From Aggregatilinea lenta (GTDB lineage Bacteria > Chloroflexota > Anaerolineae > Aggregatilineales > Aggregatilineaceae), in contig NZ_BFCB01000002.1 of assembly GCF_003569045.1 (NCBI RefSeq), positions 434,001-498,000 on the forward strand: a stretch of 64,000 nt of DNA, read 5' to 3'. Below the pieces are notes generated by a model. It was not told the DNA's origin. It saw only the letters and a list, made by a program, of their open reading frames with translations, and did not search any database. Below are positions 27,936 to 41,946 of the stretch, one piece after another (the stretch's first letter is position 1; each line of letters starts with the position of its first letter). Made by a program: the position numbers and the translations under genes.

Positions 27936-28283
27936 CTAGAAAAGGCCCCAGTTGTCCAATACGCCGTCTTCGGCCATAGACGGGTCCCACATTCCCATGC
28001 CAAGCTCGATGGTCGTGGGCAGACCGAGCGTGTCCTGGCCTTTGCGCCGCGCCGCTTCGAGCAACTGCGGCGCGTAGGGGCAGAACGGCGTCGTCATCAG
28101 CATCACGATGTGCAGGCGGTCGTCCTGCACCTGAACTTCGCGAATCAGCCCCAGCTCGACCACACTCAGGCCAATCTCAGGATCGTAGACTTCGCGCAGT
28201 GCGGTTAGCACCAGATCCTGTTTGGCTTCGACCGACATCGTTTCGGGGGTCTGGCTCGCCTGAGCCTGGGTTTCATCAGCCAT
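27936..28283 (-). CDS. MIP18/DUF59 family Fe-S assembly protein (SufT-like)
   Basis: 115 residues from ATG 28283, with GAAGGGA upstream. The DUF59 fold is plain: LTALREVYDPEIGLSVVELGLI (28-49), then VQDDRLHIVMLMTTPFCPYAPQL with the one conserved Cys, and ELGMGMWDPSMAEDG. SufT-type proteins help load or deliver Fe-S clusters. The gene is divergent from sufCBD across a 400-base promoter region, which supports the Fe-S role. The C-terminus DNWGLF resembles stand-alone SufT-like members rather than PaaD (which carries extra C-terminal cysteines). Confidence 0.85.
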   Translation of the reverse strand: MADETQAQASQTPETMSVEAKQDLVLTALREVYDPEIGLSVVELGLIREVQVQDDRLHIVMLMTTPFCPYAPQLLEAARRKGQDTLGLPTTIELGMGMWDPSMAEDGVLDNWGLF

Positions 28284-28685
28284 GATACATCTTCCCTTCT
28301 CGCCAACACGGTGAATCTCGTGCCACGCGGCACGATGAGCGTACACGGGGAGTCAGAGCGCCGGATGCGCGTGCACAAAGTATAGACCGCCCCTTCCCGA
28401 ACTGCCAGTGTCCGCGCGGCTCCCGCCGCCTATTAACGATTTACTTATGATTCTCTCATAACCTGTGTCAGATCAGGGTTTGCGCAGCGATCTGGGTTCT
28501 AATCTTGGCAATTTATAAGATAAATGTCTATTTTATTGACCCGTCGCTCGGCGAAGTGTTATACTTATCACAGAATCATTGCAAAACGTTCTCAATTGGG
28601 GCAAACTCAAGCGTCGGAAATCTTCCGCTATTTTGGACGTTTGCAACGCCAATCGCGAGCACTGTAGAGAGGGAATATCGCAACA
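28284..28685. other. Divergent intergenic region between sufT-like gene and sufC
   Basis: 402 bases without a gene. The stretch 28430-28600 is clearly more AT-rich than its surroundings and holds the suf promoter (28536-28565). A candidate sensor site for a SufR/IscR-type repressor could be expected here, but I see no convincing dyad. Confidence 0.5.
28536..28565 (+). promoter_or_regulatory. Promoter of the suf operon
   Basis: TTGACC (28536-28541), an 18-base spacer and extended -10 TGT-TATACT (28557-28565). The start site would be near 28572, giving a leader of about 114 bases before sufC. This is the best two-box promoter in the window. Confidence 0.65.
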
Positions 28686-29462
28686 ATGGGTGCAGCGCTA
28701 GAAATTCGAAATCTCCACGCCAGCGTGGAAGGGCAGCCCATCCTCAAGGGTGTGAATTTGACCGTCAAGCAGGGCGAAACCCATGCATTGATGGGTCCCA
28801 ACGGCTCAGGCAAGAGCACCCTGGCTAATGTCTTGATGGGCAATCCAGTCTATGAAGTCACCGCAGGCCAGGTCATCTTTGACGGCGTCGACATTCTGGA
28901 TCTTGAACCCGACGAGCGCAGCCGTATGGGCCTATTTTTGGCCTTTCAGTACCCGGTGGCCATCCCCGGCGTGACGCTGGCGAACTTCTTGCGCAATGCG
29001 CTCAACGCCCGCCGCAAAGAAGAAAATCCCGACGACAAGGGCATCCCGATCCCGGCGTTCCGCAAGCTGATGATCGAAAAGATGGACATGCTGTTGATGG
29101 ACCACGACTTCGCGGGCCGCTACCTGAACGAAGGCTTTTCGGGTGGCGAGAAGAAGCGCGCGGAAATTTTGCAGATGGCGATCCTGGAGCCGCGCATCGC
29201 CGTGATGGACGAGACCGACTCTGGCCTGGACATCGACGCGCTGCGTATCGTGTCCGAGGGCGTGAACAAGCTCAGTGGGCCGGACCTGGGCGTGCTGGTC
29301 ATCACGCACTACCAGCGCATCCTGAACTACATTAAGCCGCAGTTCGTGCATATCATGCTCGACGGGCGCATTGTTGAATCCGGTGGGGCGGAGCTGGCGC
29401 TCCAGCTCGAAGAGCAGGGCTACGACTGGGTGCGCGAGCAGCAGGACAGCCCATCCGCCTAG
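28686..29462 (+). CDS. sufC: Fe-S cluster assembly ATPase SufC
   Basis: 258 residues. ABC ATPase with Walker [11 protein letters not shown]-loop [10 protein letters not shown], the SufC-type signature [13 protein letters not shown], Walker [12 protein letters not shown] and H-loop VITHYQRI. SufC drives conformational change in the SufBC2D scaffold on which Fe-S clusters are built in the cytoplasm. GAGGG lies about 11 bases upstream. It is the first gene of sufC-sufB-sufD, spaced 66 and 150 bases. Confidence 0.97.
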
Positions 29463-29528: not shown

Positions 29529-30947
29529 GTGACTCTGAGCGATCAAGAACAAGTGAAGGGCATCCGCGAAGCCTATGACGAAGAATACGGCTTCAGCGAC
29601 CCTGATTCCTATGTATTCAAGACCCGCAAGGGTCTGGACGCGGACGTCGTGGCCCAGATCAGTGAGGCCAAGAACGAGCCGCAGTGGATGCGCGACTATC
29701 GACTGAACGCGCTGAAAATCTACCAAAGCAAGCCCATTCCCACGTGGGGGCCGGATCTGTCCGGCCTGCGCGAAGAGGAAATTTACTACTACGTGCGCCC
29801 GGCAGACAAAGAGGGCCGCACCTGGGATGATGTGCCCGCCAATATCAAGAAGACGTTCGACCGGTTGGGCATCCCCGAAGCCGAGCAGAAGTTCCTGGCG
29901 GGTGCGGGCGCGCAGTACGACTCGGAAATGGTCTACCATCGCATCCGCGAAGAACTCGAATCGCAGGGTGTGATCTTCAAGAGCATCGACGTCGCCCTGC
30001 ACGAAAACGAGGACCTGTTTAAGGAATATTTCGGCACGGTCATCCCGGCTCACGACAACAAGTACGCCGCGTTGAACTCGGCAGTGTGGTCCGGCGGATC
30101 GTTCATCTACGTGCCGCCGGGGGTGAAGATCGAAATGCCGCTCCAGGCGTACTTCCGCCTGAACACGGCCAGCATCGGCCAGTTCGAGCGCACGATCATC
30201 ATCGTGGACGAAGGCGCATTCCTGCACTACGTCGAAGGCTGCACCGCGCCCAGCTATACCACCGAAAGTCTGCACAGTGGTGTGATCGAAGTGGTCGTGA
30301 AGCGCGGCGGACGCTCGCGCTACACCACGATCCAGAACTGGTCCGACAACGTCTATAACCTCGTGACGCAGCGTGCCCAGGTCTACGGCGACGCCAGCCA
30401 CGAGTGGGTGGACGCCAACATGGGCAGCAAGATCACCATGAAGTACCCGTCCATCTACCTGATGGAGCCGGGCGCGCATGGCGAGGTGCTGTCGATTGCC
30501 TTCGCGGGCAAGGGCCAGATCCAGGACGCGGGCGGTAAGGCCGTGCACGTCGCGCCGCACACGTCCAGCCAGATCATCAGCAAGTCGATCTGCAAGGACG
30601 GCGGACGCAGCAGCTATCGCGGCCTGCTCAAGGTCTACCCGAATGCGGAAGACTGCAAGAGCACCGTGGTCTGCGACGCGCTGCTGCTGGACGATCACAG
30701 CGAGTCCGACACGTACCCGTACATCGAGATCGAAAGCCCGCGTGTGACCGTCGGCCACGAGGCAACCGTCAGCAAGGTCGGCGACGACCAGATCTTCTAC
30801 CTGATGAGCCGTGGCATGACCGAAGACGACGCGAACGCGATGATCGTCAATGGCTTCCTGGAGCCGCTCACCAAAGAGCTGCCGATGGAATACAGCATCG
30901 AGATGAACCGCCTGATCCGGCTGCAAATGGAAGGTTCCATCGGCTAG
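29529..30947 (+). CDS. sufB: Fe-S cluster assembly scaffold SufB
   Basis: 472 residues from GTG 29529, with AAGGAG 8 bases upstream. Typical SufB: EPQWMRDYRLNALKIY (51-66), DLSGLREEEIYYY, SGGSFIYVPPGVKIEMPLQA, FLHYVEGCTAP with a conserved Cys, NWSDNVYNLVTQRA and the C-terminal YLMSRGMTEDDANAMIVNGF. The beta-helix core forms the scaffold with SufD and accepts sulfur from SufS/SufU. Full length, no anomalies. Confidence 0.97.
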   Translation: MTLSDQEQVKGIREAYDEEYGFSDPDSYVFKTRKGLDADVVAQISEAKNEPQWMRDYRLNALKIYQSKPIPTWGPDLSGLREEEIYYYVRPADKEGRTWDDVPANIKKTFDRLGIPEAEQKFLAGAGAQYDSEMVYHRIREELESQGVIFKSIDVALHENEDLFKEYFGTVIPAHDNKYAALNSAVWSGGSFIYVPPGVKIEMPLQAYFRLNTASIGQFERTIIIVDEGAFLHYVEGCTAPSYTTESLHSGVIEVVVKRGGRSRYTTIQNWSDNVYNLVTQRAQVYGDASHEWVDANMGSKITMKYPSIYLMEPGAHGEVLSIAFAGKGQIQDAGGKAVHVAPHTSSQIISKSICKDGGRSSYRGLLKVYPNAEDCKSTVVCDALLLDDHSESDTYPYIEIESPRVTVGHEATVSKVGDDQIFYLMSRGMTEDDANAMIVNGFLEPLTKELPMEYSIEMNRLIRLQMEGSIG

Positions 30948-31008: not shown

Positions 31009-31097
31009 GCCTGTACCACACCCAAACCGGAACACAGCGGGACGGCACCGTCCCGATGCACTATGCTGGACCTGATGAGCAAAGAGAGGTAGGACAA

Positions 31098-32435
31098 GTG
31101 GCAACCCGCCGTCGTGCTGTACGAGATTTTGTAGCGCCGCCGTTCACCCGCGCCGATGTGGAGGCGGTGAGTGCGCGCTTTAATGAGCCGGACTGGCTGC
31201 GCGAGATGCGCCTGAATGCCTGGGACCTGTACGAGTCGCTGCCCATGCCCACCACGCAGGTTGAAGCGTGGCGGCGCACCGATTACCGCCACATCAACTG
31301 GGACACGGCGGGCGTGCTCGTCTCGGCGGACGGCAGCCGGTTCGAGGCCATTCCCGAAGCGAACCGTCGCCCCCTGCTGGGCGATGACCAGGGCGCGATG
31401 ATCGCGTTCGTGGATGGCGAATGCGTGCACCACGAGGTCAACGAGTCGCTGGCAAGCCAGGGCGTGATCTTCATGGATCTGCATCAGGCCGCCGCCGAGC
31501 ACGCCGATCTCGTCAAGGAGCACCTTTTCACGCACGCCGTCCTGCCCAGCGCGGACAAGTTCGCGGCGCTCAACGCGGCGCTGTGGACGCACGGCGTCTT
31601 CCTGTACGTGCCGCGCGGCAAGGCCGTTACGCTGCCCGCGCACAGCATTTTCTACAACACGCAAGTCGGCGCGACGCTGGGACATATCCTCGTCGTGCTG
31701 GATGAAGGCGCGCAAATCGATTACCTGCACGAGAGTCTCTCGCCGGACATGGACCAGGACGCGAGCTACGTCGGTGCGACGGAGCTGATCCTGAAAGACG
31801 GCGCGAACCTGCGCTTCGTCAACTTGCAGGACTGGGGCGACGGCATGTTCGAGTTCAGCCACCAGCGCGCACGCGTCGCGAACGACGGCCAGCTCGACTG
31901 GGTCACCGGCCAAATGGGCGGCAAACTGGTCAAGGCGTTCATGGAGATCGATCTGGACGGCAAAGGCAGTTGGGGCCGTATGAGCGGCGTGTACTTCCCG
32001 GCGGGCAGCCAGTTCTTCGACCTTGACACGCAGCAGAATCACAACGCGCCGAATACCACGTCCGACCTGCTGTACAAGGGCGTGCTGAAGGATAAGGCGC
32101 GCACCGTGTGGCAGGGCATGATCAAGGCGCTGCCCGGCGCGCAGAAGACGGACGGCTTCCAGGCCAACCGCAACATGCTCATGAGCGACGACGCCCGCGC
32201 CGACAGCATCCCCGGCCTGGAGATCCAGGCGGACGACGTGCGCTGCACGCATGCTTCCGCAACCGGGCAGATCGAGGAAGAGCTGCTGTTTTACCTCATG
32301 GCGCGCGGCATCCCGCGTAAGGACGCGGAAAAGCTGGTCGTGGACGGCTTCTTCGTGCCGGTCCTGGACCGCATCCCGTTCGAGAACGTGCGCGAGCGTA
32401 TGATGGCGTACATCGAGCGGAAACTTTTAGCGTAG
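31098..32435 (+). CDS. sufD: Fe-S cluster assembly protein SufD
   Basis: 445 residues from GTG 31098, chosen because AGGTAGG is correctly spaced and because the longer form adds only unrelated residues. SufD features: NEPDWLREMRLNAWDLYESL, WRRTDYRHINWD, LHESLSPDMDQD, DLDTQQNHNAPNTTSDLLYKG, FQANRNMLMSDDARADSIPG and YLMARGIPRKDAEKLVVDGF. It pairs with SufB in the SufBC2D complex. An oxidative-stress-type Fe-S system is complete here with sufC, sufB, sufS and sufU. Confidence 0.96.
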   Translation: MATRRRAVRDFVAPPFTRADVEAVSARFNEPDWLREMRLNAWDLYESLPMPTTQVEAWRRTDYRHINWDTAGVLVSADGSRFEAIPEANRRPLLGDDQGAMIAFVDGECVHHEVNESLASQGVIFMDLHQAAAEHADLVKEHLFTHAVLPSADKFAALNAALWTHGVFLYVPRGKAVTLPAHSIFYNTQVGATLGHILVVLDEGAQIDYLHESLSPDMDQDASYVGATELILKDGANLRFVNLQDWGDGMFEFSHQRARVANDGQLDWVTGQMGGKLVKAFMEIDLDGKGSWGRMSGVYFPAGSQFFDLDTQQNHNAPNTTSDLLYKGVLKDKARTVWQGMIKALPGAQKTDGFQANRNMLMSDDARADSIPGLEIQADDVRCTHASATGQIEEELLFYLMARGIPRKDAEKLVVDGFFVPVLDRIPFENVRERMMAYIERKLLA

Positions 32436-33259: not shown

Positions 33260-33445
33260 TTAGCTTCGCTTCGTGCGATAAAACGCTGCCCACACAATCA
33301 GATTGAGTACAGTCAGGGCCACGACGATACACAAAAGCGCTGCCCGATCTCGATTGACCCAAACCAGGAATATCAGCAGAGATGCCAGCAGAGAGTAACC
33401 GAGTGCACTGCTAAGGCGATTCCTCTTTTGTTCGCGCACCCCCAT
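33260..33445 (-). CDS. Small two-helix membrane protein, hypothetical
   Basis: 61 residues with two hydrophobic segments, YSLLASLLIFLVWV (18-31) and LLCIVVALTVLNLIVWAAFY (37-56), and a basic tail. It ends just before the broken membrane gene on the same strand, with GGAG following its stop, so the two look like parts of one small operon. No family recognised; could be a decayed remnant. Confidence 0.4.
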   Translation of the reverse strand: MGVREQKRNRLSSALGYSLLASLLIFLVWVNRDRAALLCIVVALTVLNLIVWAAFYRTKRS

Positions 33446-33617
33446 TCCCCTTTTTTAATGCCACTCGTCATTTAATTTATTGCTGGAAATTACTGCCGCA
33501 CGCGATACACTTAGGGCATAGTATGCGCCCGGCGACAATGCATCGCCATCCCACTACTGCCGCACCGTGACACCGCCGCCCGCGCAGCGACCATTCGAAA
33601 GGTTAATCGTCACTATC

Positions 33618-34868
33618 ATGACCGACGTCAAGACATCTCCGCTCAACATCGACGCCATCCGGACCGACTTCCCGATCCTGAATCAAGAGGTTCATCCAGG
33701 CAAACGCGTCGTGTTCCTGGATTCCGCCGCGAGCAGCCAGAAGCCGCGCCAGGTCATCGACGCGATGAGCGACTATTACGAGACCAGCCACGCCAACGTG
33801 CACCGGGGCATTCACGTGCTCAGCGAGCGCGCCACCAACGGCTACGAGGGCGCGCGCGTCAAGGTGAAGGAGTTCATCAACGCGGCGTCCTCGCGCGAGA
33901 TCATCTACACGCGCAACACCACCGAGAGCATCAACCTCGTCTCTTACACGTGGGGACGCACCAACCTCGGCCCCGGCGACGTGGTCGTGCTGACCGAAAT
34001 GGAGCATCACAGCAACATCGTGCCGTGGCAGATGCTGGCCGCCGAGCGCGGCTTCACGATCCGCTACGTGCCGGTGACGGACAGCGGCGAGCTGGACCTG
34101 GACGCTTACGCGGCCTTGCTGCGCGACGAGCCGGTGAAGCTGGTCGGCGTGGTGCACGTCAGCAACATGCTCGGCACGGTCAACCCGGTCGAGGACATGA
34201 TCGCCCAGGCGCACACGGCGGGCGCGCTGTTCCTGCTCGACGGCGCGCAGAGCGTGCCGCACCTGGCGGTGGACGTGCAGGCGCTGGACGTGGACTTCAT
34301 GGCGTTTTCGGCGCACAAGATGGCCGGACCGACCGGCATCGGCGTGCTGTACGGCAAGCGCGCGCTGCTCGAAGCGATGCCCCCCTTCCTGGGCGGCGGC
34401 GACATGATCAAGCGCGTGACGCTGGAAGGCAGCACCTGGAACACCCTGCCGCACAAGTTCGAGGCCGGGACGCCGTCCATCGCGGAGGCGATCGGGCTGG
34501 GCGCGGCGGTGGATTACCTGCGCGGCGTGGGTATGGACAACGTCCTCGCGCACGAGCGCATCCTGGTCCATTACGCGCTCGACCGGCTGGCGGAAGTCCC
34601 CGGCCTGACGCTGTACGGCCCGGACGCGGACCGGCGCAACGGCGTGGCGACGTTCACGCTCAAGGACATGCACGCGCACGACCTCGCGCAATTGCTCGAC
34701 GCTGAAGGCGTGGCGATCCGCGCGGGGCATCACTGCGCGATGCCGCTGCACCAGCGCTTCGGGATCGCGGCGTCGGCGCGGGCGAGCTTCTACCTGTACA
34801 ACTCCACCCAGGACGTGGACGCGCTGGTGAACGCCATCGAGGTGGCGCGCAAGCGTCTGGGGATGTAG
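33618..34868 (+). CDS. sufS: Cysteine desulfurase SufS
   Basis: 416 residues from ATG 33618; the GTG at 33567 lacks a ribosome site and adds no homology. Class V aminotransferase fold with VVFLDSAASSQKP, SHANVHRGIHVLSERAT, EMEHHSNIVPWQ, DGAQSVPH, PLP lysine in FSAHKMAGPTG and the catalytic Cys in RAGHHCAMPLHQ. The SufS-type Cys context distinguishes it from IscS. It takes sulfur from cysteine and passes it to SufU, encoded 92 bases downstream. A family B palindrome separates the two genes. Confidence 0.96.
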   Translation: MTDVKTSPLNIDAIRTDFPILNQEVHPGKRVVFLDSAASSQKPRQVIDAMSDYYETSHANVHRGIHVLSERATNGYEGARVKVKEFINAASSREIIYTRNTTESINLVSYTWGRTNLGPGDVVVLTEMEHHSNIVPWQMLAAERGFTIRYVPVTDSGELDLDAYAALLRDEPVKLVGVVHVSNMLGTVNPVEDMIAQAHTAGALFLLDGAQSVPHLAVDVQALDVDFMAFSAHKMAGPTGIGVLYGKRALLEAMPPFLGGGDMIKRVTLEGSTWNTLPHKFEAGTPSIAEAIGLGAAVDYLRGVGMDNVLAHERILVHYALDRLAEVPGLTLYGPDADRRNGVATFTLKDMHAHDLAQLLDAEGVAIRAGHHCAMPLHQRFGIAASARASFYLYNSTQDVDALVNAIEVARKRLGM

Positions 34869-34891
34869 CGCACAACGTCAAAAAGTGTCTT

Positions 34892-34919
34892 GTAGGGGCG
34901 TATTGCAATACGCCCCTAC
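34892..34919. repeat. Family B palindrome between sufS and sufU
   Basis: A perfect 28-base palindrome: GTAGGGGCG, TATTGCAATA and CGCCCCTAC. It is the cleanest member of the family. Confidence 0.9.
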
Positions 34920-34960
34920 CCCCAAATCCTATTGAGTTGGAATTGGAATAGGTCAATCAC

Positions 34961-35356
34961 ATGGACATCTATCTGGAAAACATCGTCGATCACGGGCAGA
35001 ACCCGCGCAACTTTGGCGAACCGCTGAACCCGGCGGACATCGACTACGAGGACGATAACCCGTTTTGCGGCGACCGCCTGCACCTCACCGCCCAACTGGA
35101 CGAAAACGGGCGCGTGAAGGCCGTGCGCTGGGAGGGCGACGGCTGCACCATCAGCCAGGCGTCGGCCTCGATGCTCGGCGAGGAGATGATCGGCAAGACA
35201 CTCGACGAGCTGCGCGCCTTCGACCGGCAGGAACTGCTGGACATGCTGGGTATCCAGCTCAGCCCCACGCGCCTCAAGTGCGCGCTGCTCTCCCTGAAGG
35301 TGCTCAAGGCGGGCGCGTACGGGCTGGACCAGTGGACAGGCGAAGACGAGGAATGA
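34961..35356 (+). CDS. sufU: Sulfur transfer protein SufU
   Basis: 131 residues. SufU/IscU-like fold with the three conserved Cys: FCGDRL (Cys38), DGCTIS (Cys64) and RLKCALL (Cys116), and the SufU-type insert between the second and third. In Firmicutes-type systems Zn-SufU accepts persulfide from SufS. Its stop codon overlaps the next ATG as ATGA, so the downstream Clp_N-protease gene is translationally coupled to it. Confidence 0.94.
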   Translation: MDIYLENIVDHGQNPRNFGEPLNPADIDYEDDNPFCGDRLHLTAQLDENGRVKAVRWEGDGCTISQASASMLGEEMIGKTLDELRAFDRQELLDMLGIQLSPTRLKCALLSLKVLKAGAYGLDQWTGEDEE

Positions 35357-36714
35357 GCGCGAGCCAGCCGATCAAAATTGAGGGCAAGATCACACAGGAT
35401 TTCCAGGCCATCCTCCAGCGCGCGCACCACGAAACCGCCCAGCGCCACGGCCACTACATGGACGTCGAGTACCTGCTGCTCGGTCTGCTGAACGTGCGCA
35501 GCGGCCCGGCCTATTCGGTCCTGGCCCGGCACGGCGCGGACTTTCAGGCGATGTACCGCCAGGTCGAATCGACCGTCGGCACGAAGCGCGACGAGATCTC
35601 GGAGGTCAAGGGCGTCGCGCGCGACGCGCAGCGGTTATTCGCGGCGGCGGAGCAGGAAGCCAGGACGCTCGACCAGAGCGCAGTCAGCGGCGGGCACCTG
35701 CTGCTGGCGATGCTCCAGGAACCGGACGGCGCGGTGCAGGATGCGCTCGCGCCGCTGGGCCTGGACCTGGACCAGACGCGGGCCGAAGTGCGCGACGTCC
35801 CGGTCGCTGCCGCCGACCCCGACCCGGCGATGACCCCGTCCGCGTCGGATGGCGCGCAAGACAGCGCCGCCCCGGAAGTGCTGCTGATCCCGACACGCAA
35901 GGCCAAGCCTAAGCCCGCCTCCGGCGAGGCACGCGGCTTTGCCGGGCTGCCCGCGCGCTGGGGCAACTGGCCGGTGATTATTCTGCTGGCGGCGCTGTTC
36001 GTGGTGTACCTCATCGCGACACTGCCCGGCAGCTCGATGGCAACCTTCGCGCTGGTGCTGGTCGGGTGGGTGTTCTCGGTGACGCTGCACGAGTTCGGGC
36101 ATGCGGTCGTCGCCTACTGGGGCGGCGACCACACCGTCAAGGATAAGGGCTACCTGACTTTCAACCCGCTCAAGTACACCCACCCCATGCTGAGCATCGG
36201 CCTGCCGCTGCTGTTCCTGGCGATGGGCGGCATTGGCCTACCCGGCGGCGCGGTGTACATCGAACAGCACCGCCTGCGCAGCAAATGGTGGCGCATGGCC
36301 GTCTCAGCAGCCGGGCCGTTGATGAATCTGGTGCTGGCCCTCGTGCTGGCCGCGCCCTTTTACTTCCATCTCGTCGATTGGCGTGAAGTGTATGTCGATC
36401 ACTCGACGTTCTGGTCGGCGGTCGCGTTCCTGGCGATGTTGCAGGTGACCGCCGTGCTGTTCAACCTGCTGCCGATCCCGCCGTTGGACGGTTACGGCAT
36501 CATCGAGCCGCTGCTGGACCCGCGCACGGCCTACACCATGCGCCAGTTCGCGGGCTTCGGCATCATGATCGTCTTCCTGGCGCTATGGTTCATCGACCCA
36601 GTCAACCGCGCGTTCTGGAATGCTGTCTACGACGCTACGAGCGCCCTGAACATTCCCTGGGATCTGATTTCGTACGGATTCGATAATTTCCTGTTCTGGC
36701 AGCAGCCGCGCTAG
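35353..36714 (+). CDS. Clp N-terminal domain fused to a site-2 (M50) membrane protease
   Basis: 453 residues. Residues about 10-150 form a double Clp_N repeat as in ClpC/ClpA: FQAILQRAHHETAQRHGHYM with EYLLLGLL, then AQRLFAAAEQEA with GGHLLLAML. A low-complexity linker (150-200) leads to a polytopic site-2 protease with the zinc motif HEFGH (246-250), preceded by a membrane segment, and the partner motif NLLPIPPLDGY (371-381). About six membrane helices. S2P enzymes cleave transmembrane substrates; Clp_N domains normally bind adaptors or substrates of AAA+ proteases. The fusion suggests cytosolic recruitment of substrates to the membrane protease. The ATGA overlap with sufU suggests a link to Fe-S or stress control; this is inference. 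Confidence 0.9.
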   Translation: MSASQPIKIEGKITQDFQAILQRAHHETAQRHGHYMDVEYLLLGLLNVRSGPAYSVLARHGADFQAMYRQVESTVGTKRDEISEVKGVARDAQRLFAAAEQEARTLDQSAVSGGHLLLAMLQEPDGAVQDALAPLGLDLDQTRAEVRDVPVAAADPDPAMTPSASDGAQDSAAPEVLLIPTRKAKPKPASGEARGFAGLPARWGNWPVIILLAALFVVYLIATLPGSSMATFALVLVGWVFSVTLHEFGHAVVAYWGGDHTVKDKGYLTFNPLKYTHPMLSIGLPLLFLAMGGIGLPGGAVYIEQHRLRSKWWRMAVSAAGPLMNLVLALVLAAPFYFHLVDWREVYVDHSTFWSAVAFLAMLQVTAVLFNLLPIPPLDGYGIIEPLLDPRTAYTMRQFAGFGIMIVFLALWFIDPVNRAFWNAVYDATSALNIPWDLISYGFDNFLFWQQPR

Positions 36715-36798
36715 AGGCCGTTATGAACCTTTTGAGCGAGCTGAACGCGGAAAAAGAAACCTCATCCCCCCACTCGCTCTCCGAAAGGAGTAACCCGC

Positions 36799-37113
36799 GT
36801 GACACGGTTTGTCACCATCGCAAACGTATCCGAGATCGGTCCTGGTGACCGCGAAGTATTCGACGTCGAGGAACACTACATCGCCGTATTCAACGTGGAC
36901 GGCACGTACTACGCGATCGAAGATGTCTGCACCCACGACGACGGTCCGTTGGCGGACGGTGAGCTGTACGGGTTCCAGATCGAGTGCCCGCGTCACGGCG
37001 CGCGCTTCGATATCCGCACCGGGGCCGTGCTGAGTATGCCCGCCGTCATCCCCGTGCCGCGCTACGACGTGCGCGTCGAGGGCGACGAGATCCAGATCGG
37101 CTTTGAAGACTGA
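36799..37113 (+). CDS. Small Rieske [2Fe-2S] ferredoxin (NirD-like)
   Basis: 104 residues from GTG 36799, with AAAGGAG 9 bases upstream. The Rieske cluster ligands are clear: CTHDDGPL (Cys, His) and CPRHGARFD (Cys, His). Stand-alone proteins of this size act as electron carriers for oxygenases or as NirD-like subunits. No oxygenase is nearby. Its position after the SUF block is consistent with an Fe-S client, but the operon ends at the terminator just downstream. Confidence 0.93.
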   Translation: MTRFVTIANVSEIGPGDREVFDVEEHYIAVFNVDGTYYAIEDVCTHDDGPLADGELYGFQIECPRHGARFDIRTGAVLSMPAVIPVPRYDVRVEGDEIQIGFED

Positions 37114-37120
37114 CTCCTCC

Positions 37121-37154
37121 ACGGTCCCGTGCGTCGCCGCTGCGGGACCGTTTT
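37121..37154 (+). terminator. Terminator after the Rieske gene
   Basis: ACGGTCCCG (37121-37129) pairs with CGGGACCGT (37143-37151), a perfect 9-bp stem, followed by TTTTC. Confidence 0.72.
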
Positions 37155-37196
37155 CATCCCTCTCCCCCGGCTCGATCTGGCCGCGCCGCGCGCGCG

Positions 37197-37205
37197 TGCT
37201 ATACT
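37197..37205 (+). promoter_or_regulatory. Extended -10 promoter for the secreted protein gene
   Basis: TGC-TATACT, 47 bases before ATG 37253. The leader includes GGGAG at about 10 bases from the start codon. Confidence 0.5.
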
Positions 37206-37252
37206 CCGGCGCGGAAACGATCCGAACCCGCTGCTGCCGGGAGTAAAGCGCT

Positions 37253-38089
37253 ATGTCCTCTCTGCTCGCCACCAAGTCAGGCCGCGCTGGCGCGGCGTTT
37301 GCCGCCCTGCTGCTCGTGCTCAACGTCGCGCTGCTCGCGGATCGCGCATCCGAGTCCGGCACGCCCGCCGCCATCACCCCGCCGCCAACGCTGACGCCTA
37401 CGCCCGTCCCGAATGGCGCGATGTGGTCGCTGGGCACGGGCGGCGACGGCACAAATCCCTACGTCGAATGGGTCGCGGTGTACCCGGTGTCGTCACTGTG
37501 GGACGTGTTGGGCGCGCCCTCGCTGCGCTTCAGCGATCAGTCGCCGGAAAACCCGGACATGAACCGCAGCTTCGAGATCGGGTTCTACAAGTACGGCCCG
37601 ACGTGGCACACGCGCAACAATATCGTTGAGTTCTGGATCGGCGGGCCGGAGCACGGCGGCGGCACGCTGTCGATCATCGGCAACGACAAGACCGGCGGCC
37701 AGCTTGAAGTGCGCAATCCCACCGACACCGGGCGCATCACGCTGGACTACCGCGACGCCGATCACCCGCTGATCACGGTCGACGAGTCGAACCCGCTGGC
37801 GCTGCAGGCTGAGCGCGGCATCGTATCGGAATCGACGCACACATTCATGCAGGGCGTCCGCATCGCGCCGGAAAGCGAGCGCATCGGGCAGACAAACGGC
37901 GCGGCGTGGGACGCGGGCGCGATCACCGTCGAGGCGGCAGTGGACGCGGACAGCATCGTGCTGATCACGCCCATCACGGAACCGCGCGGGCGCTGGTGGG
38001 TGGATGACGTCGCGCCCGGCGGCGGGTTCACGGTGCGCAGCAGCGCACCAGACGAAGACATGGCGTTTAACTGGTTGGTTCTGAACTGA
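37253..38089 (+). CDS. Secreted protein of unknown function
   Basis: 278 residues. A hydrophobic N-terminus (AGAAFAALLLVLNVALLADR, 12-31) is a signal or anchor, followed by a Thr/Pro-rich linker (PPPTLTPTPVP). The rest is predicted to be beta-rich with no Cys. The part SFEIGFYKYGPTWHTRNNIVEFWIG and the C-terminal SIVLITPITEPRGRWWVDD recall tail-fibre or 'shufflon-type' beta structures in phage proteins, but this is weak. The B3/B4 gene begins 11 bases after its stop, so they form an operon. No enzyme motif seen. Confidence 0.7.
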   Translation: MSSLLATKSGRAGAAFAALLLVLNVALLADRASESGTPAAITPPPTLTPTPVPNGAMWSLGTGGDGTNPYVEWVAVYPVSSLWDVLGAPSLRFSDQSPENPDMNRSFEIGFYKYGPTWHTRNNIVEFWIGGPEHGGGTLSIIGNDKTGGQLEVRNPTDTGRITLDYRDADHPLITVDESNPLALQAERGIVSESTHTFMQGVRIAPESERIGQTNGAAWDAGAITVEAAVDADSIVLITPITEPRGRWWVDDVAPGGGFTVRSSAPDEDMAFNWLVLN

Positions 38090-38977: not shown

Positions 38978-40147
38978 CTAATACCGGAACACCGCCGCAA
39001 ACGCGCCCTCGCCGGGGACCTCGCCCTCTTCCACCGCGTAGACCGTGCCGCCGTTGATCAGCGTCTGCACCGCTGCCAGATCGAGCAGGTCCTGGTCGCC
39101 GGGCTGGCGGGAGGGGTGCACGTGCACGTTGTAGCTGTGCTCGCGGAACTGGCCCCATTCCTGCGCGCCCAGCGCCACAAACAGCGCCGCGATGCGGCCC
39201 TCGTGCGCCGCGCGCAGCACCGTCTTCAAGTCGTTAGCCGCCTGCCCGTCGTCGCGACCCATGTGCGCCTCGAATTCGGCAGCGCTGGCGGACTGGGCCT
39301 GCTTGAAGTAGGGCTTCACGATGTCCCACGCCTCGCGGTGCAGCTCCTTGGCGCTCAACGTTTCGGGGTTGCCCAGGATGCCCGCGTCGAGCAGATGCTG
39401 GTAACTGTTGGCTTCGCGATAGATCGGCAGCAGGTAATCCACGCCCGCCAGCAGCAGCGGCACATGCTGCTCCGCGAACAGGTCTTGCAGCCCGCGATCG
39501 ACCTTCTGGAAGTAGCGCTTGATGTCTTGCTTGTCGAGTTCTTCACCTTCGCTGTGACCGTGGAACATGACGCCGTGGCCGCCACCGCCCGCGCTGCGCG
39601 CCCGGCCCGTATTCATGCGGTACTGGTTGTCCCGATCGCGGTAGTCCGCCCACAGCGCCTCGGCCAGACTCTCCGGCACACCGTCCAGCTCGACCTCGGC
39701 CACGCTGTCGCGCGTGCCCTTCAGCAGCCGGATCTCGTCCTGGCTGAGCGCCAGCACGTAAAACTTGCCGTCGCCGCTCAGCAGCGGCAGCAGGGGCTTG
39801 AGAAAGAAGCGCTCGCTGACGCTGACCTGCTCGGCAAAGTTCACCGGCACGCGCAGCATTACCAGCACTCCGTCGGCCAGAAAGACGGCCAGCCCGTCGC
39901 TCTGGTGCCGCCAGAAATCCACATCATCCTGAAGATCGACGAGGGGCTTCAAAAATGCCTCAGCCTCCGGGGCGCGCAGGCCCAACTCGACCAGCCGCGC
40001 TTCGGCCTGGCGCTCCAGATTCCGAAACCGGATCGGGTTCTGTTGGGTTTCCGCGCCCGCGCGCACTGCCGGCATATAGACCGACGCGCACCACTTACCC
40101 TGCGTGTCGGTCAACGTCCTGAGATCGCTTTGAGAAATAAAGTCCAC
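38978..40147 (-). CDS. Bacterial eRF1-like protein (baeRF3 type)
   Basis: 389 residues from GTG 40147, with GGAAAGGAG 6 bases upstream. The N-terminus (SQSDLRTLTDTQGKWCASVYMP) and the middle motifs FRNLERQAEARLVELGL and LLAGVDYLLPIYREANSYQHLL resemble the baeRF3 group of bacterial archaeo-eukaryotic release factor relatives. A glycine-rich loop (GGGGHGVMFHGH, about 204-215) sits where eRF1 carries the GGQ peptide-release loop but lacks Gln. The functions of these bacterial families are unknown; ribosome-rescue roles have been proposed from comparative genomics. The HIT and MOSC genes are directly upstream on the same strand. Confidence 0.75.
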   Translation of the reverse strand: MDFISQSDLRTLTDTQGKWCASVYMPAVRAGAETQQNPIRFRNLERQAEARLVELGLRAPEAEAFLKPLVDLQDDVDFWRHQSDGLAVFLADGVLVMLRVPVNFAEQVSVSERFFLKPLLPLLSGDGKFYVLALSQDEIRLLKGTRDSVAEVELDGVPESLAEALWADYRDRDNQYRMNTGRARSAGGGGHGVMFHGHSEGEELDKQDIKRYFQKVDRGLQDLFAEQHVPLLLAGVDYLLPIYREANSYQHLLDAGILGNPETLSAKELHREAWDIVKPYFKQAQSASAAEFEAHMGRDDGQAANDLKTVLRAAHEGRIAALFVALGAQEWGQFREHSYNVHVHPSRQPGDQDLLDLAAVQTLINGGTVYAVEEGEVPGEGAFAAVFRY

Positions 40148-40246
40148 AGCCGTCTCCTTTCCTATACCTAGAAGATAAGGGGATCTCAATCGCGCGCCAA
40201 GCATGCGGCGACCGGTCCCTGTGGGATAGAAGGCGGAAAGAGGTAC

Positions 40247-41319: not shown

Positions 41320-41946
41320 GTGTCTGTACGCCAACGATTGGATCCCATCGAGCAAACCCTTGCCTACTTCATGGGCCTGGGCCTCGCCATCATTCTGCTG
41401 GCGTTCTGGCTCGGCGGGCTGGAAAACGTCGATAGCGGCGACGCGACGGGCCTGTTGATCGTCGGCGCGACGGTGCTGGTCCTCAGCACGATCGCCTGGA
41501 TGTACTTCAGCCAGCCGTGGAAGTCGTTCGGCAACTTCGAGCCAGTCGAGGATCAGGCGCACAGCGCGCACGCGTCGCGCGCGCTCGTCACCGCCGAGTC
41601 GCATCTGCCCGCCGTGGTCGAAGCGCCGGGGCTGCCCGTGCCAGTCGAGACGCAGGACGCCGCCGAACCGGTGCCCGTCGAGATGGAAGCGGAACCCGAA
41701 GCCGCCATGCCGGTCACCGAAGAACCGCTGCCGTTCGTGACCGACACCTTAACGCAGATCACCGGGATCGGGGCGCGGGTCGCGCAGGGCCTCAACGACG
41801 CTGGAATCACCACGCTGGCACAGATTGCCGCGATGTCGCCCGAAGATCTGGCGAACACAGTGCGCGAGCAGGGCGTGCGGCTGGTCGGCAGTACGGACAC
41901 CTGGCCCGCGCAGGCGCAGGCGCTGCTCGACGACCGCAGCGAGTGA
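41320..41946 (+). CDS. Membrane protein with helix-hairpin-helix domain
   Basis: 208 residues from GTG 41320, with GGGAGG just upstream. Two membrane helices (FMGLGLAIILLAFWLGGL, 17-34; LIVGATVLVLSTIAWMYF, 46-63) are followed by an acidic Pro/Glu/Val-rich linker and a C-terminal helix-hairpin-helix (about 142-175) with LTQITGIGARVAQGLNDAGI and TLAQIAAMSPEDL. HhH modules usually bind DNA or mediate contacts. A membrane-anchored one could tether nucleoid or partner proteins, but no homologue with a known role is recognised. It is convergent with the next gene, 12 bases apart. Confidence 0.82.
   Translation: MSVRQRLDPIEQTLAYFMGLGLAIILLAFWLGGLENVDSGDATGLLIVGATVLVLSTIAWMYFSQPWKSFGNFEPVEDQAHSAHASRALVTAESHLPAVVEAPGLPVPVETQDAAEPVPVEMEAEPEAAMPVTEEPLPFVTDTLTQITGIGARVAQGLNDAGITTLAQIAAMSPEDLANTVREQGVRLVGSTDTWPAQAQALLDDRSE

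Follow-up and report, generated by a model that had tools for sequence, protein, structure and literature searches.

Clp_N repeats joined to a site-2 protease in Chloroflexota: a recurrent architecture with a lineage-specific place in the suf operon

The gene described here was found in a stretch of 64,000 nucleotides of Aggregatilinea lenta (Chloroflexota; contig NZ_BFCB01000002.1, positions 434,001 to 498,000 of the forward strand), which is the window to which the coordinates below refer. It encodes a protein of 453 amino acids, in which two Clp_N repeats precede a site-2 protease (S2P) of the Peptidase_M50 type with an intact zinc site; this composition is supported by Pfam as well as by fold comparison. 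The features of the gene are the following.

35353-36714, plus strand: Clp_N-S2P fusion gene (453 amino acids; Pfam Clp_N and Peptidase_M50, AlphaFold model, fold matches)
35386-35577, plus strand: Clp_N repeat 1, residues 12-75 (model helices; alignment to Bacillus subtilis ClpC)
35614-35802, plus strand: Clp_N repeat 2, residues 88-150, best Pfam stretch 99-148 (alignment to ClpC)
35815-35961, plus strand: lysine- and arginine-rich low-confidence linker, residues 155-203 (pLDDT below 50; charge count)
35959-36024, plus strand: first membrane helix, residues 203-224 (model helix 202-223; hydropathy peak 208-226)
36088-36102, plus strand: zinc-binding and catalytic motif HEFGH, residues 246-250 (sequence)
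36463-36492, plus strand: motif NLLPIPPLDG, residues 371-380, which supplies the third zinc ligand, D379 (sequence)

In the Pfam scan of the protein, Clp_N is matched in two stretches at 1.4e-18 and Peptidase_M50 at 3e-14, each beyond its curated cut-off. No PDZ, CBS or AAA+ family is matched at an E value of 0.1, the remaining row, Bap31, being sub-threshold. A preliminary description made from the letters alone had placed a double Clp_N module ahead of an S2P with the HEFGH motif, which is borne out by the domain search and the fold matches, and it had correctly noted that the protein contains no ATPase. The full-length AlphaFold model (nine sequences) has a mean predicted local distance difference test score (pLDDT) of 77 and a predicted template modelling score (pTM) of 0.53; its layout is two repeats with eight helices in all (residues 15-148), followed by residues 155-203, modelled at low confidence, and then by a set of membrane helices. 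Residues 10-152 of the model match ClpC N-domains (6pbs_B, Z 20.0, root-mean-square deviation 2.4 over 142 aligned residues; 5hbn, Z 18.9), and ClpC-type N-domains also rank first in a phmmer search of solved structures. No publication on Clp_N joined to a site-2 protease or to Peptidase_M50 was found among the papers searched, and of the 245 hits of a broader query the 20 listed include none that treats the architecture by title; domain databases may list it.

The protease half, when modelled separately, reaches a pLDDT of 82 and a pTM of 0.81. Seven S2P chains, namely RasP, three of RseP or its orthologues, MjS2P and two of SpoIVFB, head the fold list with Z values from 10.8 to 7.4, the next row having a Z of 4.8. 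According to a warning of the fold tool, values below about 13 may reflect a common arrangement in helical bundles, so these Z values are not decisive, and Foldseek by itself gives a weak match (3b4r, E 0.012); hence the zinc motifs carry weight, too. Residues H246, E247, F248, H250, D379 and G380 are invariant across 43 fused proteins. From sequence and model, the protease half is an S2P core with all zinc-binding and catalytic residues, the activity of which is predicted. Sequence and model also agree on one extra membrane helix between the linker and this core. The linker is probably a flexible cytosolic tether, as judged from the model and its charges. The Clp_N part is predicted to lie on the cytosolic side: an inside N-terminus would fit the many lysines and arginines of the linker, which leads up to the first membrane helix, as well as the charges in the loop that follows the helix with HEFGH.

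A protein search of 400 genomes of the phylum (E 1e-20) gave a match in 79, of which 39, including that of A. lenta, score above 140 bits and the other 40 below 92 bits. Frames were read in ten of the lower-scoring genomes; nine are S2Ps of another type with a loop like GWGKPVPVN or GWAKPTPVN, and no Clp_N part was seen in these nine by eye, without a Pfam scan; at the tenth (L187) the frame read was a neighbouring one. A second search among relatives (E 1e-15) matched in 34 of 61 genomes, that of A. lenta included. Altogether 60 stretches were examined, one of them being that of the second, unfused M50 gene of A. lenta. In what follows, f1, f97, f92, f29, f32, f3, f49 and the like denote Chloroflexota family groups and L-numbers denote loci; the window locus is counted within f1. 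N-terminally extended proteins number 43 (the window protein, 12 others of f1, 7 of f97, 3 of f92, 6 of f29, 12 of f32, and those of L009 and L013), and Clp_N and M50 are both matched by Pfam in all 43. Surveyed across Chloroflexota, the fusion recurs in five family groups as well as in two named assemblies (loci L009 and L013) and is not a one-off. Short S2P relatives in f3, in f49 and on plasmids of other phyla share the core type and a GGIGLPGGAVYI-like loop with the fusion; the cores of f3 and f49, which are devoid of Clp_N, are 41-59% identical to the window protein. Outside Chloroflexota, coverage consisted only of an exact-pattern scan of genome contigs and a tblastn search against plasmids. 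The former returned 8 loci, every one with a Chloroflexota name (Thermoflexus, Anaerolinea, Anaerolineae, Ardenticatenia, Chloroflexi), and the latter 8 records, each with a query coverage of at most 54%. Similar cores are present in four plasmid S2Ps of Pseudomonadota and Actinomycetota, the frames of which, unscanned, show no Clp_N by eye.

In a tree of S2P cores with plasmid outgroups, f1 and f97 form one clade (98/91) and f29 and f32 another (98/93), while the f92 proteins make up the third. The unfused f3 and f49 fall between the fused clades, and by the starred branches the fused state must have changed three times or more, which speaks against a single clean fusion event; in a first core tree, fused and unfused groups interleave likewise. 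The rooting is unsure, because the four plasmid rows have long branches and fail to form one group. In the Clp_N tree a single branch (89/81) sets every fused row apart from the N-domains of Clp unfoldases. One old fusion followed by losses and repeated fusion are thus both possible as far as the sequences tell. The rows absent from these trees are L129, L089, L111, L130, L068, L127, L131, L090, L132 and L091 (plasmid-outgroup core tree), L111, L131, L090, L132, L091 and L089 (Clp_N tree), and the outgroup rows L069, L070 and L072, removed by the motif filter (first core tree).

Apart from the fusion, the genome of A. lenta has six further frames with paired Clp_N matches (C3:311819, C1:466532, C1:93452, C3:24262, C4:245603 and C2:605014), which hint at several Clp-type unfoldases; at least two of the six are on long branches (L005, L006).

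Within the window, the fusion gene is part of a suf gene run for iron-sulfur (Fe-S) cluster assembly, with the order sufC-sufB-sufD-sufS-sufU-fusion-Rieske.

28686-29462, plus strand: sufC (ABC_tran 5.3e-23; named from its place before sufB)
29529-30947, plus strand: sufB (SUFBD_core 2.5e-80 and SufBD_N; B rather than D from place and order)
31056-32435, plus strand: sufD (SUFBD_core; NCBIfam sufD above cut-off)
33567-34868, plus strand: sufS, cysteine desulfurase (NCBIfam sufS 9.2e-179, above cut-off)
34961-35356, plus strand: sufU (Pfam NifU_N 7.6e-22; NCBIfam SUF_scaf_2 85.7 bits, cut-off 92.5)
36799-37113, plus strand: Rieske-type ferredoxin (Pfam Rieske 8.9e-19)

With sufU upstream and the Rieske gene downstream, this arrangement holds in 13 of 13 f1 loci with a view, the window included; 14 relatives were matched in f1, and G406 and G413, which are at contig ends without an upstream view, leave 12 plus the window. 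The fusion is placed between sufU and Rieske in all seven f97 loci, too, and L013 has the same arrangement. The ATG of the fusion gene overlaps the sufU stop by 4 nucleotides in the window. Among the 20 related loci where sufU is visible, one (L083) has this exact overlap, while in 18 the nearest plausible start lies between 14 nucleotides inside sufU and 16 nucleotides past it; L131 is the exception, with a gap of approximately 225-231 nucleotides. As a mark of a functional pair the start-stop overlap was therefore rejected, close spacing being general and the exact overlap not. A promoter and terminator scan of 33400-37300 found neither (shuffles average 0.9 and 2.1).

The reading that is favoured here, with a probability of about one half, is that of a membrane-embedded S2P whose ClpC-type N-domain recruits adaptors or cytosolic marks. 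This domain would bind a partner, as it does in ClpC. The partner could be an adaptor, or else a membrane protein recognized by a degron or a modified residue in its cytosolic part; the membrane protein would thereby be brought to the S2P, or the S2P would be opened to it. Clp_N would stand in for the PDZ or CBS domains found in other S2Ps, and the cut would free a soluble fragment for signalling or for disposal via ordinary Clp proteases. In f1 and f97 the targets might be membrane proteins dependent on Fe-S status, which the protease would clear or process; this is the weakest step. Published work provides the background to this scheme: the N-domain of ClpC is a brake as well as a binding site for adaptors and marked substrates (PMC12583610), and the CBS domain of SpoIVFB contributes to substrate association without being essential (PMC6242693). 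With its gene in the suf operon of f1 and f97, the fusion protein is probably produced there during Fe-S cluster assembly. For these two groups a role tied to iron or Fe-S would be reasonable by analogy, since S2Ps control iron uptake elsewhere, as RseP does by cutting FecR (PMC8144685).

Several points weigh against the favoured reading. M50 alone, without Clp_N, is matched by Pfam in 18 of 18 shorter relatives (11 of f3, 7 of f49), and because the same S2P core thus exists without it in f3 and f49, the protease as such does not need Clp_N. The Clp_N part evolves faster than the S2P core in both f1 and f97. Neither ClpS nor MecA was matched in any of 41 genomes, with controls matching in 5 and 2 of 14 genomes, respectively. 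In L009 the Rieske gene is downstream, and no suf gene lies within 2.4 kb upstream. There is no sufU in the examined stretches of f92 (3 of 3), f29 (6 of 6) and f32 (12 of 12), which amounts to 0 of 21, and sufU is followed directly by Rieske, without an S2P, in f93 (2 genomes), f95 (1), f2 (3), f3 (3) and one f92 genome. Lastly, the substrate, the adaptor and the Fe-S role of the fusion are all matters that we infer.

These points affect the parts of the favoured reading to a different extent. Adaptor-based delivery, as proposed in the preliminary description, fits the behaviour of Clp_N in ClpC, but delivery by MecA or ClpS was rejected, neither being found in the 41 genomes although controls matched. 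The link to Fe-S status, which that description had read from the start-stop overlap, stands insofar as the gene is located in the suf operon of f1 and f97; it fails in the other three fused groups, and other suf operons do without the fusion. Since three fused groups have no sufU nearby and suf operons without the fusion exist, the SUF link is real but lineage-specific (f1, f97) and does not extend to the fusion in general. As a control, sufU is present in 19 of 20 genomes from families without the fusion-suf link. The observed architecture is confirmed and widened by these results; recruitment through Clp_N is plausible, and the case for an Fe-S target is weak.

Several families without the link run sufU straight to a small Rieske-type ferredoxin gene, for which reason these two genes look like the older pair, into which the fusion gene was inserted or from which it was later lost. 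Loci of this direct kind in Chloroflexota families without the protease are L151-L154, L158-L162, L165, L170 and L173. A second sufU of two f96 genomes also has Rieske beside it without an S2P, the Rieske gene is placed before sufS in three f32 genomes, and no adjoining Rieske gene is seen at the main sufU of f96, of the second f92 genome, of f29 and of f49.

Two further observations concern the composition of the suf loci. A FeS_assembly_P gene (PF01883, 6.5e-17; DUF59/SufT-like) at 27936-28346 on the minus strand is divergent from sufC; its cluster recurs in nine of 13 f1 loci and in one f97 locus, so that the suf locus would also carry a SufT-type factor, as far as sequence similarity indicates. 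All six f97 loci with sufD in view (L083, L085, L086, L090, L091, L132) have two extra genes between sufD and sufS, which by scanned representatives encode a rhodanese and a SufE-like protein (PF02657), with sufU also present; two sulphur acceptors, SufE-like and SufU, in one operon seem unusual.

How much of the ClpC binding mode has been retained can be judged from the phosphoarginine pockets, for which E32 and E106 of ClpC are the determinants of the sites pArg2 and pArg1, respectively (PMC12583610). In the alignment to B. subtilis ClpC, E39 of repeat 1 is the equivalent of E32, and G114 of repeat 2 stands at the position of E106. The E32 equivalent is glutamate in 20 of 20 proteins of f1 and f97, all 20 of which have lost the E106 equivalent; in f92 the former is present in two of three, and in f29 and f32 neither pocket glutamate occurs in any row with a letter there. 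Because the E106 equivalent is lost and the E32 equivalent kept in some lineages only, the fusion proteins would have at most one phosphoarginine-type pocket left. Phosphoarginine recognition was set aside as the main model, only one of the two glutamates being present in f1 and f97 and neither in f29 and f32; recognition through a single pocket may still occur. The search for the arginine kinase McsB (PF00217 and NF002194) matched in 0 of 61 genomes but is uninformative, as no control genome matched either.

The retained glutamate is also of relevance to an unlikely alternative, according to which Clp_N acts as a gate or sensor: lying over the S2P on its cytosolic face, it would hold the protease shut and release it upon binding of a small ligand or a modified residue, similar to the way in which the N-domain keeps ClpC in its resting state by means of the phosphoarginine pockets. 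The N-domain of ClpC is an allosteric brake released by phosphoarginine or MecA (PMC12583610), and in mycobacteria repression is lifted by a ligand of ClpC2, which is likewise a Clp_N protein devoid of an ATPase (PMC10030653), with which the conservation of one site glutamate in all 20 f1 and f97 proteins would agree. The loss of E106 in the same 20 proteins and of both glutamates in f29 and f32 speaks against such a gate, however, and the low-confidence linker does not suggest a fixed lid.

Mean pairwise identities differ between the domains and between the lineages. In f1 (12 rows) they are 52% and 47% for the two repeats, 80% for the core and 31% for the linker, and in f97 with L013 and L009 (6 rows) 41% and 33%, 70% and 23%. 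For repeat 1, repeat 2 and S2P core the values are 52%, 82% and 71% in f32 (12 rows) and 53%, 76% and 83% in f29 (5 rows); L131, L111, the f92 rows and three f97 near-copies are not included. Repeat 2 is thus the best-conserved part measured in f32. These values have a bearing on an improbable explanation by which the protein would be a general house-keeping S2P for signal-peptide remnants and small membrane proteins, its position at suf being a chance insertion passed on by descent and Clp_N a drifting leftover. The lower conservation of Clp_N relative to the core in f1 and f97 would fit, as would the gene contexts that vary between lineages and the presence of the fusion between sufU and Rieske in f1 and f97 and its absence there in f93, f95, f2, f3 and one f92 genome. 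Close spacing to sufU in 19 of 20 related loci, with L131 as the exception, speaks against this explanation. Moreover, as repeat 2 is the most conserved part in f32 and all 43 fused proteins still match Clp_N, this part is not simply drifting; it appears to be under selection, with different lineages stressing different repeats.

In f32 the fusion gene belongs to a different gene cluster, with the order radA, a PIN-domain gene (weak Pfam match; presumably YacL-like), ispD, ispF, cysS, rlmB, fusion. Of these, radA could be seen at 10 of the 12 loci, and rlmB was found in 11 of 12 (eight by tblastn, three more by clustering); a yacP-like gene follows the fusion in 5 of 12 loci and a pyruvate kinase gene in 8 of 12. 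In all six genomes with an upstream stretch examined, the same strand carries a clpC-like gene, approximately 58% identical to the ClpC-like protein of A. lenta over about 640 amino acids, at a distance of some 8-9 kb upstream of radA. Bacillus has clpC-radA followed by a similar gene run. The proximity of clpC suggests a possible source of the N-domain of the fusion, though without direct support from the Clp_N tree. That Clp_N would serve to hold the ClpC unfoldase or to take over its clients, with the fragment cut by the S2P passing on to ClpCP, is decidedly improbable: the joint f32 cluster, the contacts of the resting ClpC N-domain with the M-domain and AAA1 (PMC12583610) and the degradation of the RseP-generated fragment by ClpXP in Escherichia coli (PMC10202637) are in its favour, but the f1 and f97 genes lie with suf, where no clpC was noticed, though without a dedicated search, and the identity to solved ClpC N-domains is only approximately 23-29%.

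Returning to recruitment by a ClpC-type N-domain, the protein may be compared with known systems. Among S2Ps, PDZ domains mark group I and CBS domains group III (PMC10202637). With the CBS-type enzymes SpoIVFB and Methanocaldococcus jannaschii S2P it shares the M50 core, HExxH, NxxPxPxLDG and a cytosolic accessory domain; unlike them it has no CBS domain, its accessory domain being Clp_N and located N-terminally instead of C-terminally. The core fold also resembles that of the PDZ-type enzymes RseP, RasP and Rip1 (RasP and RseP rows, Z 10.8 to 9.6), whereas a PDZ domain is missing and the added domain is predicted to be cytosolic. The likeness to the ClpC N-domain comprises the double Clp_N repeat, the fold (Z up to 20) and, in f1 and f97, the E32 equivalent; the fusion differs by the lack of AAA+ modules, the loss of the E106 equivalent and the joining to a membrane protease. 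Clp_N without ATPase is also known from ClpC2 of mycobacteria and ClpT of plants (fold rows 8ad9, 8b9o, 4y0c and 4y0b). ClpT is not known to carry a protease part. ClpC2 carries none and further differs by its own dimerising N-terminal part (PMC10030653).

Substrate choice by S2Ps is known mainly from the PDZ and CBS types, and Clp_N would add a further recognition module, derived from Clp unfoldases. Being small, predicted to be soluble and usable as bait, the Clp_N part would offer a clean handle on this choice. If it shares the adaptors of ClpC, intramembrane proteolysis would be tied to the Clp system within one polypeptide. A more far-reaching proposal, rather unlikely at present, is an ATP-independent membrane counterpart of ClpC that would use the same marks or adaptors to cut membrane-anchored proteins, the fusion perhaps having arisen or been kept repeatedly as a useful pairing and recruited to Fe-S supply in one branch; if true, one recognition code would serve soluble and membrane proteolysis.

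With regard to possible substrates among the neighbours, the anti-sigma factor named as an example in the preliminary description did not materialize: none was identified beside the fusion, most flanking genes not having been annotated individually. A conserved adjoining substrate gene was rejected, as no other gene recurs between sufU, fusion and Rieske. The open reading frame at 41320-41946 (plus strand), 4.6 kb downstream, encodes a protein for which two membrane segments are predicted and which matches a helix-hairpin-helix family (HHH_5, 1.7e-07), so that it is perhaps membrane-bound and maybe DNA-binding. Its cluster recurs in 7 of 13 f1 loci and, on the other strand, in 2 of 7 f97 loci; it is a possible candidate substrate, with nothing tying it to the protease. 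A TauE-like gene and a PMT_2-like gene each occur in the flanks of 5 of 13 f1 loci. Because several stretches end before these genes, the recurrence counts of the f1 membrane genes are lower bounds.

Two other genes lie downstream of the suf operon in the window. The product of the frame at 37253-38089 (plus strand) resembles an anchored protein at its N-terminus and gives a match to K1-lyase_C that stays below the threshold; by tblastn, homologues were found in only 2 of the 12 other f1 loci examined (L077 and L078; L007 is the same contig as L077). At 38978-40204 (minus strand), a baeRF-family protein (2.5e-47), a bacterial relative of the archaeo-eukaryotic release factor, is encoded; a gene of this family is found downstream of the suf operon in 7 of 13 f1 loci.

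For the unfused relatives, the appendix of a Chloroflexi paper lists an S2P beside GalE and Fes genes, which resembles the f3 context seen here (PMC8756737). In f49, the S2P without Clp_N is located between MurJ-like and Nramp-like transporter genes in 5 of 7 loci (L095, L097, L106, L123, L124), a setting that may be unrelated to the fusion.

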